A program made the translations under genes and the position numbers. Source: Rhodovastum atsumiense (GTDB lineage: Bacteria; Pseudomonadota; Alphaproteobacteria; Acetobacterales; Acetobacteraceae). Taken from it: 64,000 bases of DNA. The DNA lies in NCBI RefSeq assembly GCF_937425535.1, contig NZ_OW485601.1:1638501-1702500 (forward strand), written 5' to 3'. Shown here one piece after another: positions 7,232-49,363 of the stretch (position 1 is the first letter of the stretch; the number at the start of each line of letters is the position of its first letter). The notes beneath the pieces were generated by a model. The model ran no database searches, had not been told where the DNA came from, and saw only the letters and a list, made by a program, of their open reading frames with translations.

Positions 7232-7695
7232 GCATGGCCACGATCCGCATCCAGGACGCGGATTTCGACATCGGCGCCGAGATCGCGGCCCTGACCGCGG
7301 GTCGCGCCGATATCGGCGGCATCGGCTGCTTCGTCGGCACCGTCCGCGACAGCGCCGGCGGCCACCCGATCACGGCAATGACGCTCGAGCACTATCCCGG
7401 CATGACTGAACGGGCCCTCGCCGCCATCGCCGCGGAGGCCGAGGCACGCTGGAGCCTGCTTGGCTGCACGCTGATCCACCGCGTCGGCACGCTGACGCCC
7501 GGTGCGAACATCGTGCTGGTGCTGGCCGCCGCGCCGCATCGCCAGGCGGCGCTGGACGCGACCGCCTTCCTGATCGACTGGCTCAAGACCCGCGCGCCGT
7601 TCTGGAAGAAGGAACGCTTCGCCGACGGGGGCGAGCACTGGGTAGAGGCACGGGACGCCGACGACGCGGCGGCGGCACGCTGGGAAAGGACCTGA
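7228..7695 (+). CDS. moaE: Molybdopterin synthase catalytic subunit
   Basis: The catalytic partner of MoaD in molybdopterin synthase (155 residues from GTG 7228; an in-frame ATG at 7234 is an alternative start). It contains GGIGCFVGTVRD, the MTLEHYPGM segment, HRVGTLTPG and the active-site lysine block (APFWKKE). The GTG start overlapping the moaD stop favours 7228. It ends 2 bases before a multi-hairpin palindromic element that also terminates the convergent ilvE. Confidence 0.95.
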   Translation: MSMATIRIQDADFDIGAEIAALTAGRADIGGIGCFVGTVRDSAGGHPITAMTLEHYPGMTERALAAIAAEAEARWSLLGCTLIHRVGTLTPGANIVLVLAAAPHRQAALDATAFLIDWLKTRAPFWKKERFADGGEHWVEARDADDAAAARWERT

Positions 7696-7696
7696 T

Positions 7697-7843
7697 CCGG
7701 GGCGCTGCCCCGGCCCAGGCAGGAGGCTCCGCCTCCTGCACCTCCGCCAAGGGCAAAGCCCTTGGAACCCATTCCTTGCCGCGCAGCGCGTCGCGGGGTG
7801 CAGGGGCCTTGTGGCCCCTGCCGGGTCCAGGGCAGAGCCCTGG
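7697..7843. repeat. Multi-hairpin palindromic element between convergent moaE and ilvE
   Basis: Five hairpins: 7697-7713 (CCGGGGC/GCCCCGG), 7719-7739 (GCAGGAGGC/GCCTCCTGC), 7747-7765 (CCAAGGGC/GCCCTTGG), 7801-7820 (CAGGGGCC/GGCCCCTG, loop TTGT) and 7827-7843 (CCAGGGC/GCCCTGG). The spacers match those at 34573-34718 almost base for base. It begins 2 bases after the moaE stop and ends 12 bases before the ilvE stop, so it probably acts as a bidirectional terminator or 3'-end stabiliser. The function is inferred. Confidence 0.85.
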
Positions 7844-7855
7844 CCTTGCTTCCGA

Positions 7856-8758
7856 TCAGATCGGGGCGCGCTGCTCGACCTCTTCCGGGCTCATCCGCAC
7901 CAGCGCCTCGTAATCCCCGAGCAGCGTCTCGGTGATCTGGCCCGGCGTGAAGTGCAGTTCGCCGATCTGGCGCACCGGGGTCACTTCGGCGGCGGTGCCG
8001 GCCAGGAACACCTCGCTCGCCCGCTTGATCTCCTCGGGCTGGATGGCCCGCTCCACCACCGGGATCTGCCGGCGGCGCGCGATCGACATCACGGTGCGGC
8101 GGGTGATGCCGTTGAGGAAGCAATCCGGCGTCGGCGTGTGCAGTTCCCCGTCGATGGCAAAGAACACGTTGGCGCCGGTCGCCTCGGCCACCTGGCCGCG
8201 CCAGTCCAGCATCAGCGCATCATCGAAGCCTTCGGACTCGGCCTTGTGCTTGGACAGCGTGCCGATCATGTAGAGGCCGGCCGCCTTCGAGGCACTCGGC
8301 GCGGTCTGCGGATGTGGCCGGCGCCATTCGGCGATGCCCAGGCGCACGCCCTTCATCCGGTTCTCACCGAACAGGTTCGGCCAGGCCCAGGTGGCGATCG
8401 CAAGGTGGATCTTGGTCGCCTGCGCCGAGACCGAAAGCTGCTCGGAGCCACGCCATGCGATCGGGCGGACATAGGCCTCGACCTGGCCGTTCGCGGCCAG
8501 CACCTGCTTGCAGGCGGCGTCGATCTGCTCGGCGGTATAGGGAATGTCGAAGCCGAGCAACCGCCCGGACTGGATCAGGCGTTCGGTATGGGCGCGGAGC
8601 TTGAAGATGTTGCCGCCATAGGCCCTCTCCCCCTCGAACACGCCGCTGGCATAGTGCAGCCCATGCGAAAGCACGTGCAGCTTCGCGTCCCGCCACGGCA
8701 CCAGAGCACCGTCATACCAGATGAAACCATCCCGGTCGTCGAAAGGAACCAGCGCCAC
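7856..8758 (-). CDS. ilvE: Branched-chain amino acid aminotransferase
   Basis: A PLP enzyme for the last step of Leu/Ile/Val synthesis and the first step of their breakdown (300 residues from the GTG at 8758). The fold-type IV features are clear: GLHYASGVFEGERAYGG, the lysine region KAAGLYMIGTLSKHKAE, the phosphate-binding GITRRTVM loop and GTAAEVTPV. A longer frame reaches a TTG at 8788, but GTG 8758 gives the usual N-terminus (MALVPFDDRDGFIWYDG) and has AGGAGAG 6-12 bases upstream, so I prefer it. It diverges from the MarR gene. Confidence 0.95.
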   Translation of the reverse strand: MALVPFDDRDGFIWYDGALVPWRDAKLHVLSHGLHYASGVFEGERAYGGNIFKLRAHTERLIQSGRLLGFDIPYTAEQIDAACKQVLAANGQVEAYVRPIAWRGSEQLSVSAQATKIHLAIATWAWPNLFGENRMKGVRLGIAEWRRPHPQTAPSASKAAGLYMIGTLSKHKAESEGFDDALMLDWRGQVAEATGANVFFAIDGELHTPTPDCFLNGITRRTVMSIARRRQIPVVERAIQPEEIKRASEVFLAGTAAEVTPVRQIGELHFTPGQITETLLGDYEALVRMSPEEVEQRAPI

Positions 8759-34572: not shown

Positions 34573-34718
34573 GCGGGGCGCTGCCCCGCCCCCGCCAGGA
34601 GGCTTTGCCTCCTGGACCTCCACCAAGGGCGACGCCCTTGGAACCCATTCTTTGCCGCGCAGCGCTTTGGGGGTGCAGGGGCCTTGTGGCCCCTGCCGGG
34701 TCGAGGGCAGAGCCTTTG
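34573..34718. repeat. Multi-hairpin palindromic element between convergent dut and DsbD genes
   Basis: Hairpins at 34573-34589 (GCGGGGC/GCCCCGC), 34595-34615 (CCAGGAGGC/GCCTCCTGG), 34623-34641 (CCAAGGGC/GCCCTTGG) and 34676-34695 (CAGGGGCC/GGCCCCTG), plus a decayed fifth at 34701-34718. Module order and spacers equal those at 7697-7843. It fills the whole gap between two convergent stop codons, leaving only 3 and 8 bases at the edges. Confidence 0.85.
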
Positions 34719-45868: not shown

Positions 45869-48800
45869 ATGAGCATCTCCACCCCCTTCATCCGCCGTCC
45901 GGTCGGCACCTCCCTGCTGATGGCGGCGATCGTCCTGGTCGGCATCGCCGCCTATCCGCTGCTGCCCGTCGCCCCGCTGCCACGCGTCGAGTTCCCGACC
46001 ATCAACGTCTCGGCCAAGTTTCCCGGCGCGAGCCCGGAAACCATGGCGACCGCGGTGGCGCAGCCGCTGGAGCGACAATTCGCCCAGATCCCCGGCATCG
46101 CGCAGATGACCTCGACATCCGTGCTGGGGCAGAGCTCCATCACCATCCAGTTCGACCTCAACCGCAGCATCGATTCCGCCGCGCTGGACGTGCAGTCGCG
46201 CATCACCGCCGCCCAGGGCCAGTTGCCCAAGGACCTGCCCTCGCCGCCGACCTTCTGGAAGGTCAATCCCTCCGACAGCCCGATCATGATCTATGCGGTG
46301 CAGTCCGACCTGCACCCTCTGATCGATGTCGACGACTATGCCGACAACATCCTCGCCCAGCAGATCAGCCAGATCTCCGGCGTCAGCCAGGTCTTCATCG
46401 GCGGCGAGCGCAAGCGGGCGGTGCGGGTGCAGGTGGATCCGGCCAAGCTCGCGGCGATGGGCATCACGCTGGAAGACGCCCGCAGCGCCCTTGCCACCGC
46501 CACGGTGAACGCGCCGAAGGGCACGATCGACGGGGTGAAGCGCAGCTTCACCGTCTACGCCAACGACCAGTTGACCAAGGCATCCCAGTACCAGGACCTG
46601 GTGATCGCCTATCGCAACGGCGCGCCGGTGCGGGTGCGTGACATCGGCCAGGCCGTCGACGACGCCGAGAACGTGCGCGTCGGCGGCTTCCGCAACGGCA
46701 GGCCCGGCGTCCAGCTGGTGATCTTCAAGCAGCCGGACGCCAACATCATCGACACGGTCGAGCGCATCGAAGCAGCCATGCCGCGGCTGCGGGCGGCGAT
46801 TCCGCCCTCGATCGAGGTCAACAAGGTGATGGACCGCACGCAGACCATCCGCGCCTCGGTCCACGAGGTTCAGTTCACGCTGATCCTGACGATCGCCCTG
46901 GTGGTGATGGTGATCTTCCTGTTCCTGCGCAACCTGTGGGCCACCATCATCCCCGGCATCACCGTGCCGATCGCGCTGGTCGGCACCTTCGCGGTGATGT
47001 ACCTGCTGGACTTCAGCCTGGATAATCTCTCGCTGATGGCGCTGACCATCGCGGTCGGCTTCGTGGTCGACGACGCCATCGTCATGCTGGAGAACATCTA
47101 CCGCCATATCGAGGACGGCATGAAGCCGATGGACGCCGCCATCCGCGGGGCGGGCGAGATCGGCTTCACCATCGTCTCGATCAGCGCCTCGCTGATCGCG
47201 GTGTTCATTCCGCTGCTGCTGATGGGCGGCATCGTCGGGCGGCTGTTCCGGGAATTCGCGGTCACCGTCAGCGTGGCGGTGCTCGTCTCGGCGCTGGTGT
47301 CGCTGACGCTGACGCCGATGATGTGCTCGCGCTTCCTGCACCATGAAACCGGCCGGCACGGACGGCTCTACCGGGTGATCGAGAGCGGCTTCGACCTGCT
47401 GCTCGCCGGCTACCGGCGCACGCTCGACATCGCGCTGCGCCACCAGTTCGTGACGCTGCTGACCTTCCTGGCCACCGTGGCGCTGACGGTGGTGCTGTAC
47501 ATCCAGATCCCCAAGGGGTTCTTCCCCGAGCAGGACAACGGCCTGCTGCTCGGCGTCTCCGAGACCGCGCAGGACGTCTCCTTCAAGGAAGCGGTGCGGA
47601 TCAACCGGGAACTCGGCGCCGTGCTGCTGCAGGATCCCGATATAGCCAACTATGTCTCGCTGGTCGGGGCGGGCGTGTCCGGGCAGACCGGCAACAACGC
47701 GCGCTTCTTCGTGGCGCTCAAGCCGTTCGAGGAACGGCATGCCTCGGCGCAACAGATCATCGCACGGCTGCGGCCGCAGCTCGCACGCATCGAGGGCGGA
47801 CAGCTTTTCCTGCAGGCCGGTCAGGACGTGCGGGTAGGCGGGCGCATCTCCAAGACGCAGTACCAGTACACGCTGCAGGACGCCGACGCGAACGAGCTGT
47901 ACGAATGGGCGCCGAAGGTCTTCGCGAAGCTGCGCACCCTGCCGCAATTGCGTGACGTCGCCACCGACCAGCAGAACGGCGGCACCACGGTGATGATCAC
48001 CATCGACCGCGACGCCGCCGCCCGCTTCGGCATCTCGCCCCGCCAGATCGATGACACGCTGTACAGCGCGCTCGGCCAGCGCCAGGTGACCCAGTACTTC
48101 ACCCAGGTGAACACCTATGAACTCATCCTGGAAGTGCTGCCGGAGCTGCAGGGCGATCTGACTGTGCTGGACAAGCTGTACGTGAAATCCAGTGCCGGCC
48201 AGGCGGTGCCGCTCTCGACCTTCGTGAAGGTGGACACCACCCGGACGGCGCCGCTGTCGATCAGCCACCAGTCGCAATTCCCGGCGGTGACGCTGTCCTT
48301 CAACCTCGCCGAGGGCGTGGCGCTCGGCCAGGCGGTGGACGCCATCCAGGGGGCGATGCGCGATCTCGGCGCGCCGATCACCATCTCCGGCACCTTCCAG
48401 GGCACCGCCCAGGCGTTCCAGTCCTCGCTCTCCAGCCAGCCTTACCTGATCGCGGCGGCGTTGATCGCCGTCTACATCATCCTGGGCATCCTGTACGAGA
48501 GCTACATCCTGCCGATCACCATCCTCTCGACGCTGCCGTCGGCCGGGGTGGGGGCGCTGCTGATCCTGATGGGCGCGGGCTACGAGCTGTCGGTGATCGC
48601 GCTGATCGGCATCATCCTGCTGATCGGCATCGTCAAGAAGAACGGCATCATGATGGTGGACTTCGCCATCACCGCCGAGCGGCGCGACGGCGAAACCCCG
48701 TTCAACGCCATCCGACAGGCCTGCCTGCTGCGTTTCCGCCCCATCCTGATGACGACGATGGCGGCGTTGCTGTCCGGCCTGCCGCTGATGATCGGCACCG

Positions 48801-48991
48801 GCGCCGGGTCGGAACTGCGCCGCCCGCTCGGCTTCGCGATGGTAGGTGGCCTGGCCCTCAGCCAGATCCTGACGCTGTATACGACGCCGGTGATCTATCT
48901 TTACCTGGAACGCCTGCAACGCTGGCTCGCGCCGAAGCGGACCAGTTCCATGCCCGCGCTGGCGGAAAAAATGGGAGCAACGGCGGACTGA
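45869..48991 (+). CDS. RND multidrug efflux transporter, MdtB/MdtC-like
   Basis: A 1040-residue proton-driven inner-membrane pump with twelve membrane segments and two large periplasmic loops. The N-terminus ISTPFIRRPVGTSLLMAAI is typical, and the proton-relay Asp pair is present in AVGFVVDDAIVMLENIYRH (about residues 400-418). The second half repeats the fold, with LIGIILLIGIVKKNGIMMVD. It resembles MdtB/MdtC more than AcrB. Substrates are unknown. Its stop codon is 3 bases before a partial palindromic element. Confidence 0.95.
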   Translation: MSISTPFIRRPVGTSLLMAAIVLVGIAAYPLLPVAPLPRVEFPTINVSAKFPGASPETMATAVAQPLERQFAQIPGIAQMTSTSVLGQSSITIQFDLNRSIDSAALDVQSRITAAQGQLPKDLPSPPTFWKVNPSDSPIMIYAVQSDLHPLIDVDDYADNILAQQISQISGVSQVFIGGERKRAVRVQVDPAKLAAMGITLEDARSALATATVNAPKGTIDGVKRSFTVYANDQLTKASQYQDLVIAYRNGAPVRVRDIGQAVDDAENVRVGGFRNGRPGVQLVIFKQPDANIIDTVERIEAAMPRLRAAIPPSIEVNKVMDRTQTIRASVHEVQFTLILTIALVVMVIFLFLRNLWATIIPGITVPIALVGTFAVMYLLDFSLDNLSLMALTIAVGFVVDDAIVMLENIYRHIEDGMKPMDAAIRGAGEIGFTIVSISASLIAVFIPLLLMGGIVGRLFREFAVTVSVAVLVSALVSLTLTPMMCSRFLHHETGRHGRLYRVIESGFDLLLAGYRRTLDIALRHQFVTLLTFLATVALTVVLYIQIPKGFFPEQDNGLLLGVSETAQDVSFKEAVRINRELGAVLLQDPDIANYVSLVGAGVSGQTGNNARFFVALKPFEERHASAQQIIARLRPQLARIEGGQLFLQAGQDVRVGGRISKTQYQYTLQDADANELYEWAPKVFAKLRTLPQLRDVATDQQNGGTTVMITIDRDAAARFGISPRQIDDTLYSALGQRQVTQYFTQVNTYELILEVLPELQGDLTVLDKLYVKSSAGQAVPLSTFVKVDTTRTAPLSISHQSQFPAVTLSFNLAEGVALGQAVDAIQGAMRDLGAPITISGTFQGTAQAFQSSLSSQPYLIAAALIAVYIILGILYESYILPITILSTLPSAGVGALLILMGAGYELSVIALIGIILLIGIVKKNGIMMVDFAITAERRDGETPFNAIRQACLLRFRPILMTTMAALLSGLPLMIGTGAGSELRRPLGFAMVGGLALSQILTLYTTPVIYLYLERLQRWLAPKRTSSMPALAEKMGATAD

Positions 48992-48994
48992 CCG

Positions 48995-49063
48995 GACAGC
49001 CGCGCAGCGCGACCGGGGTGCAGGGGCCTTATGGCCCCTGCCGGGTCCAGGGCAGAGCCCTGG
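48995..49063. repeat. Partial copy of the palindromic element, RND gene / acidic-protein gene junction
   Basis: Only the right-hand modules are present: CAGGGGCC/GGCCCCTG with loop TTAT (49021-49040) and CCAGGGC/GCCCTGG (49047-49063), preceded by the same CCGCGCAGCGCG spacer as at 7.8 kb. It again fills the gap between two convergent stop codons, 3 bases from one and 6 from the other. Confidence 0.8.
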
Positions 49064-49069
49064 CCTTGC

Positions 49070-49363
49070 CTACTTCTCTTTCTCGCCGTCCTCTTCTTCT
49101 TCCTCTTCTTCTTCCTCGTCGTCGTCCTCGTCCTGGTGCTCGTAGTACCAGTCGAGCACCTCGTCATGGAAATCCGGATCCTTGAGCAGGCGCATTGCCA
49201 GCGCCAGCACGATTTCCGGCGCCGCGGAAAGATCGGTTGCGTCCGTATCCACGTCGGATGCCGCGACGACGCGCACCGACATGGAGCCGCTCTCTTCCCC
49301 TACGACAAGGGCGACTTCGCCCGGGTCGAGTTCGACGGCCGTGGTCTCGGTCTTGGGTGCCAT
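49070..49363 (-). CDS. Small acidic protein of unknown function
   Basis: A 97-residue protein beginning MAPKTETTAVELDPGEVALV, with a folded-looking first 70 residues (ALAMRLLKDPDFHDEVLDWY) and a C-terminal tail that is almost pure Asp and Glu (about residues 77-92) ending in Lys-Glu-Lys. No family recognised. ATG 49363 is chosen because the sequence before it looks non-coding. The 231 bases upstream hold only a terminator hairpin of the ccm genes. Confidence 0.65.
   Translation of the reverse strand: MAPKTETTAVELDPGEVALVVGEESGSMSVRVVAASDVDTDATDLSAAPEIVLALAMRLLKDPDFHDEVLDWYYEHQDEDDDEEEEEEEEEDGEKEK

Follow-up and report, generated by a model that had tools for sequence, protein, structure and literature searches.

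In the window, by which we mean the whole 64-kb stretch of Rhodovastum atsumiense DNA analysed here, palindromic elements occupy the gaps between three pairs of convergent genes (Table 1). The window is part of a 6.48 Mb contig (C1) of a genome that totals 7.42 Mb in nine contigs; for R. atsumiense G2-11, a chromosome of 6.48 Mb accompanied by eight plasmids is described (PMC9938234). The first-pass annotation listed these three copies as wedged between convergent stop codons, and all three are real. The stop codons on their left (moaE, a TGA at 7693-7695; dut; and an acrB-type gene) lie 1, 4, and 7 nt away, and those on their right (an ilvE-like gene on the other strand, 7856; a dsbD-like gene, 34727; and an ORF, 49070) lie 12, 8, and 6 nt away. 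The right flank of the third copy is less certain, because the ORF on that side (49070-49363) has no Pfam match. The list was also incomplete: a fourth copy, located behind an HD/ACT-domain gene, had been overlooked. These features are copies of a REP-like, many-copy, multi-hairpin repeat family.

Table 1. Repeat copies in the window, parts of the first copy, and CGTC dimers in the genome sample (M1 and M2, modules of the element).
Feature	Position	Strand	Description
Full copy 1, 147 nt	7697..7843	+	Convergent gap; M1 (three hairpins), spacer, M2 (two hairpins, inverse order)
Hairpin 1 of M1	7697..7713		7 bp, loop GCT
Hairpin 2 of M1	7719..7739		9 bp; ACCTCC behind it duplicates part of the 3' arm of hairpin 2
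Hairpin 3 of M1	7747..7765		8 bp; followed by AACCCATT
Central spacer	7778..7789		GCCGCGCAGCGC, between M1 and M2
First hairpin of M2	7800..7821		9 bp; preceded by GGGGT
Last hairpin of M2	7827..7843		7 bp; preceded by GGGT
Full copy 2	34574..34718	+	Convergent gap, dut versus dsbD-like gene
Half copy 3, M2 only	48999..49063	+	Convergent gap behind acrB-type gene
Fourth copy, rearranged	about 1735-1900 (limits approximate)		Co-directional gap, directly behind stop 1727-1729
CGTC dimers	L090:3286, L109:8030, L114:9981, L132:1310, L133:7565, L062:886, L068:2702, L081:12015		Consensus search

The elements are built from hairpin units of approximately 17-22 nt, most of which adjoin a partial duplicate of one of their arms (CCTCC or CCC on the right in M1, GGGG or GGG on the left in M2). 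The inward end of M1 often reads CCCATT (40 such strings among the 75 copies of the genome sample described below), and M2 in reverse reading can show an end of the same type; the element therefore resembles an inverted pair of related modules. Both modules are present in 40 of the 75 copies, only M1 in 20, and only M2 in 15, mostly as an inverted pair around the spacer or as a single module. The RNA of copy 1 has a computed folding energy of -103.8 kcal/mol (z = -4.76), and that of the opposite strand -102.3 kcal/mol (z = -3.96). One sampled copy (L138:4372-4545) carries a T-tailed two-way terminator hairpin in its middle, between M1 and M2, an arrangement that looks as though the modules had gathered around a native terminator.

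Stem conservation was assessed in an alignment of 42 full copies (41 from this genome and one from a relative, G004), most of them chosen as best search matches. Standard base pairs occupy 1603 of 1606 pair cells, and 42 of the 45 changed pair cells still pair. Two-sided changes are found in 8 of 40 pairs, a number reached in none of 500 shuffles and by no slide control; the further pair types, 12 in number, are not above the shuffles (149 of 500 reach 12). Deviating letters make up 118 of 3280 in stems, 166 of 695 in loops, and 277 of 2115 at other unpaired positions. The third hairpin of M1 has an invariant stem and a variable loop, and the first hairpin of M2 switches its stem type between copies, with both arms altered together. 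The stems of this stop-anchored, REP-like family are selected or copied; conservation within one genome can also reflect recent copying or gene conversion.

To place the family in the genome, we examined the window together with 80 stretches of 20 kb (20 contiguous, C1:1-400,000, and 60 taken every 100 kb), in all 1.664 Mb with 1362 genes called by a self-trained coding model. A profile built on 27 copies yielded 75 clusters at E <= 1e-5, which amount to 3.7 per cent of the sampled intergenic DNA; the element is thus, as REPs are, a short extragenic palindrome in high copy number. By context, 35 copies are co-directional, 29 convergent, and 4 divergent, against 34.4, 12.6, and 21.0 expected from gap length; 4 more overlap called genes and 3 lie at stretch ends. 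A wider search of the same genome gave 83 clusters, of which 42 are co-directional, 33 convergent, and 4 divergent; 1 is located in a gene and 3 are at an edge. The first-pass annotation would have counted copies equally common in divergent gaps or inside genes as a refutation; with 4 and 4 of 75, such copies are rare.

Among gaps of at least 60 nt, the element occupies 29 of 103 convergent (28 per cent), 35 of 417 co-directional (8.4 per cent), and 4 of 182 divergent ones (2.2 per cent). Because the element itself lengthens the gaps that it occupies, we recounted occupancy on residual gap length. When the count is limited to gaps that contain 20 nt or more of other DNA, 32 of 556 co-directional, 11 of 125 convergent, and 4 of 189 divergent ones are occupied, so that the rate per stop codon is similar in convergent gaps, which have two stops each, and in co-directional gaps, which have one. 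The special standing that the annotation had given to convergent gaps is therefore unsupported, and convergence as the defining context is ruled out by this similar rate and by the 35 co-directional copies, the fourth copy of the window among them. Co-directional copies have no uniform orientation: 15 point the same way as the upstream gene and 20 the opposite way. Two of the gene-overlapping copies cover a called start, with the upstream gene ending 3 and 9 nt away, and the other two contain the stop codon of an ORF; two convergent copies likewise contain the stop codon of the left gene. In this way four ORFs enter an element by 41-76 nt and stop inside it. These four ORFs and the four divergent-gap copies are as expected from insertion. 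An element lies within 100 nt of 97 of 1294 gene ends; since most gene ends carry none, termination does not generally depend on it.

The stop codon, and not convergence, is the anchor of placement. Co-directional copies start a median of 5 nt behind the upstream stop codon and end a median of 62 nt ahead of the next start; the upstream stop lies within 15 nt of the copy in 32 of 35 cases (36 of 42 in the wider set). Among the 28 co-directional copies whose gaps leave more than 30 nt of slack, 27 have the stop no more than 20 nt away (7.6 would be expected under uniform placement), and none of 20,000 permutations was as extreme. At convergent copies, both stops are within 15 nt in 18 of 29 cases (two of these copies reach 41 and 54 nt into the left ORF). 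When null insertion points were drawn in element-free convergent gaps of 1-400 nt, such a fit was expected in 29 per cent of cases with one point per gap and in 5 per cent with points drawn by gap length. Even against the milder null the observed number is too high (binomial P-value = 2e-4), and random insertion thus fails to give the fit, as the annotation had argued. Short native gaps account for part of the convergent fit. The residual DNA in occupied convergent gaps has a median of 14 nt, compared to 41.5 nt in element-free gaps (P-value = 0.017).

T-tailed terminators, which the annotation had called rare in this genome, are indeed so. In gaps of at least 20 nt, a simple scan found them at 30 of 748 gene ends that lack an element (7 after shuffling), compared to 9 of 33 in a 49-kb Escherichia coli control. 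Ends that bear an element have them no less often (4 of 97), and the data therefore do not show a replacement of T-tailed terminators by elements. At element-free convergent ends, a T-tailed terminator is present at only 6 of 226, and a perfect 7-bp hairpin with any tail at 69 of 226 (8 after shuffling), compared to 17 of 193 divergent control sites. Gene ends of this genome thus commonly carry hairpins with few Ts, some of which the repeat supplies. The element is not itself an intrinsic T-tailed terminator, as only 4 of its 148 outward tails are T-rich (at least four Ts in the first six positions); TTTT or AAAA occurs anywhere in 13 of the 75 copies. Membership in a known RNA family is unsupported, since the window gave no Rfam match at gathering scores.

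Hairpin ends of a comparable kind have been mapped elsewhere. Among 1,427 mapped 3' ends of the GC-rich Streptomyces clavuligerus, 353 are reported as structured without a U-tract and 182 as U-rich (PMC8269248), and in Zymomonas mobilis the ends mapped to intrinsic terminators are reported to be enriched between convergent genes (PMC7566282). The U-less, or I-shaped, terminators share with the element the GC-rich hairpin at a gene end that lacks a U-tract. They differ in that they were mapped by RNA 3' ends, whereas the element is known from DNA sequence, and in that the element is a dispersed repeat family, a trait that does not figure in the account of U-less ends in PMC8269248.

Among the closest likenesses are REPs and BIMEs of the GTAG and CGTC types (Di Nocera et al. 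2013, PMC3733652), which are described as many-copy, short intergenic palindromes, often in inverted pairs, located in convergent and co-directional gaps and mostly near stop codons. The element has the same downstream placement in such gaps; in P. entomophila and S. wittichii, REPs between convergent genes are given as less than 20 bp from both stops (PMC3733652). In contrast to the REPs and BIMEs of that description, it joins its units into arrays of several different hairpins and has neither a conserved GTAG or CGTC tag nor an adjoining RAYT gene. In the 42 aligned copies, GTAG is not conserved at the unit end (3 loops contain GTAG or CTAC, and the spacer that separates hairpin 1 from hairpin 2 contains CTAC in 5 cases), and CGTC is not conserved there either (CGTC or GACG is merely sporadic). 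The genome's single Y1_Tnp (RAYT-like) match (L058:1330-2060) is flanked by GTAGGGCGGA-type REPs, with no element in the part of its flanks that was read, and mobilisation of the element by this gene is thus unsupported. The GTAG-type REPs of the genome form 19 clusters, of which 13 are convergent, 4 co-directional, 2 in genes, and none divergent; the placement bias is therefore common to another palindromic repeat here.

A 30-nt palindromic dimer with CGTC tags was also observed. All 8 of its matches in the sample sit inside element copies (Table 1), and the consensus searched for was derived from those same 8 matches. CGTC repeats are given as missing in Acetobacteraceae and, in another species, as nested in target palindromes (PMC3733652).

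Judged by its sequence, the element looks like a family of its own, with an array architecture and without a GTAG or CGTC tag or a RAYT. Among alphaproteobacteria, the RIME and ABC elements of Rhizobiales are mosaic palindromic intergenic elements, which the element resembles in this respect. No paper was found that prints any of four unit strings, a result that would miss sequences given only in figures or supplements or in papers outside the library searched, and no title on this family was found among the listed matches of literature searches on palindromic repeats in Acetobacteraceae and on such repeats between convergent genes.

Of 39 related genomes, 14 contain a match to the 147-nt query, all of them in the same family (14 of 23; 0 of 16 outside it). 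One unit junction has 70 exact matches in this genome (the 50 listed are all on contig C1), 2 in one of 79 other genomes, and none in the remaining 78; as this junction is almost private to the genome, other species carry other forms. Plasmids of other organisms gave one partial match (37 per cent of the query) in 72,556 records, and the single-gene neighbourhoods of 80 loci from named species gave no model match. In 40 stretches from two relatives of the same genus, mostly chosen around element matches, the wider search found 80 clusters, of which 32 are co-directional, 23 convergent, and 5 divergent, while 2 are located in genes and 18 at stretch ends. Anchoring is looser in these relatives: the stop is no more than 15 nt away at 22 of 32 co-directional copies, and both stops are that close at 9 of 23 convergent ones.

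Elements recur at orthologous gene ends. Among 133 reciprocal-best ends, the ortholog has an element at 8 of 14 element-bearing ends and at 5 of 119 other ends (Fisher's exact test; P-value = 1.6e-6), in a table that is small and in which two genes are counted in both relatives. These figures were obtained with models rebuilt on both genomes after a first table had been seen (4 of 13 versus 6 of 122; P-value = 0.008), in which forms of the relatives that are visible by eye had been missed. At transcript-end-like sites only, concordance is 8 of 13 versus 4 of 51 (P-value = 1e-4). The downstream neighbour has changed at 7 of the 8 concordant ends. At the other 6 of the 14 element-bearing ends the ortholog has no element of the family, and by eye no other hairpin is present in 4 of these 6. 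The concordance of gene ends between species is the least expected part of our results.

Taken together, its position next to stop codons suggests that the repeat probably shapes mRNA ends. In the reading that we prefer, and to which we assign a probability of roughly one half, REP-like, U-less hairpin arrays would set the 3' ends of RNAs or shield them, and between convergent genes would do so on both strands. The array would fold in the RNA directly behind the stop codon and block 3'-to-5' exonucleases, and RNA from Rho-dependent or leaky termination would be trimmed back to it, leaving a stable 3' end. Since each strand folds, a single copy could serve both convergent genes. Several hairpins in series might preserve a folded barrier while the first of them is covered by a terminating ribosome, and some direct pausing or termination at U-less hairpins is conceivable.

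The concordance at orthologous ends permits a more far-reaching and rather doubtful version: U-less, multi-hairpin 3' cassettes may belong to particular genes, and not to gaps, throughout the genus and be kept while their sequence is exchanged for a species-specific version and the neighbouring gene changes. Equally tentatively, the repeat family might then provide standard, exchangeable ends for transcripts in a lineage where T-tailed terminators are scarce.

The strongest rival, a serious possibility if not the one that we favour, is a selfish palindromic repeat of no use to the host, spread by a mobilising enzyme or by gene conversion. Its copies would land near terminator-like hairpins or be purged elsewhere, and their position would reflect target choice plus purifying selection. 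Such a repeat would account for the many similar copies of an almost private form (a junction found 70 times here and twice in 1 of 79 other genomes), the use of modules as a mosaic (40 copies with both, 20 with M1 only, and 15 with M2 only), the four ORFs that end within an element, the median of 14 nt of other DNA left in occupied convergent gaps compared to 41.5 nt in native ones, and the placement bias shared with the GTAG REPs. However, avoidance of promoters alone leaves the proximity to stops (15 nt or less) in long co-directional gaps unexplained, and neither the concordance at orthologous ends despite a changed neighbour nor stems that are held while loops drift would be expected. A search for a mobilising gene of the Y1_Tnp family found the single match that lies among the GTAG REPs.

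Alternatively, hairpins within 15 nt of the stop could stall terminating ribosomes and so lower the yield of the upstream gene, as is reported for E. coli REPs. The 32 of 35 co-directional copies at such distances (for E. coli REPs, 260 of 496 are cited, and 446 of 4,072 are given in the study's own wider set; PMC12306157) agree with attenuation of this kind but also fit mere stop anchoring, and it is not obvious why attenuation would be needed at genes as unrelated as moaE, dut, and ilvE; we consider it improbable. Least probable of all is a device at the DNA level (a gyrase or nucleoid-protein site, or a barrier to polymerase collision between convergent units), which the excess of convergent copies (29 versus 12.6 expected by length), the palindromic DNA, and the description of E. 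coli REPs as gyrase targets (PMC3733652) would suit, but which is at odds with co-directional copies that outnumber convergent ones, with a similar rate per stop codon, and with a tight stop anchor that has no evident rationale in DNA.

Since stop-adjacent REPs and U-less 3' ends have already been published, the finding is a well-founded case of a known phenomenon. If the arrays do set RNA 3' ends, a repeat family can assume a housekeeping role at many genes, which would suggest a stand-in for T-tailed terminators in a GC-rich lineage. The thing to explain becomes the stop-codon anchor instead of convergence, and the comparison of orthologous gene ends opens to testing a long-standing question, namely whether REP-like repeats are of use or are simply tolerated.

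Variant elements are present at the ilvE end in three relatives (in one of them about 80 nt off), another relative has a different hairpin repeat there, and one has a T-tailed terminator. Across 30 ilvE loci, that of the window included, a 6-bp hairpin is found within 60 nt of the stop in 15 and is absent in 15, and at two loci (L208 and L209) the hairpin may belong to the next gene. Synteny is broken at all 20 ortholog pairs in convergent gaps of at least 60 nt (8 with an element and 12 without), so these gaps offer no contrast by which the element could be seen as a cause of the breaks. In co-directional gaps of at least 60 nt, synteny is broken in 4 of 6 pairs with an element here and in 10 of 28 with none in either genome, which are small numbers. 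Gene ends in one relative (G006; L142 and L216) are occupied by a hairpin repeat of another kind, whose arms resemble TCTTCTTT..AAAGAAGA, downstream of the orthologs of the window genes at 45869-48991 and 7856-8758.
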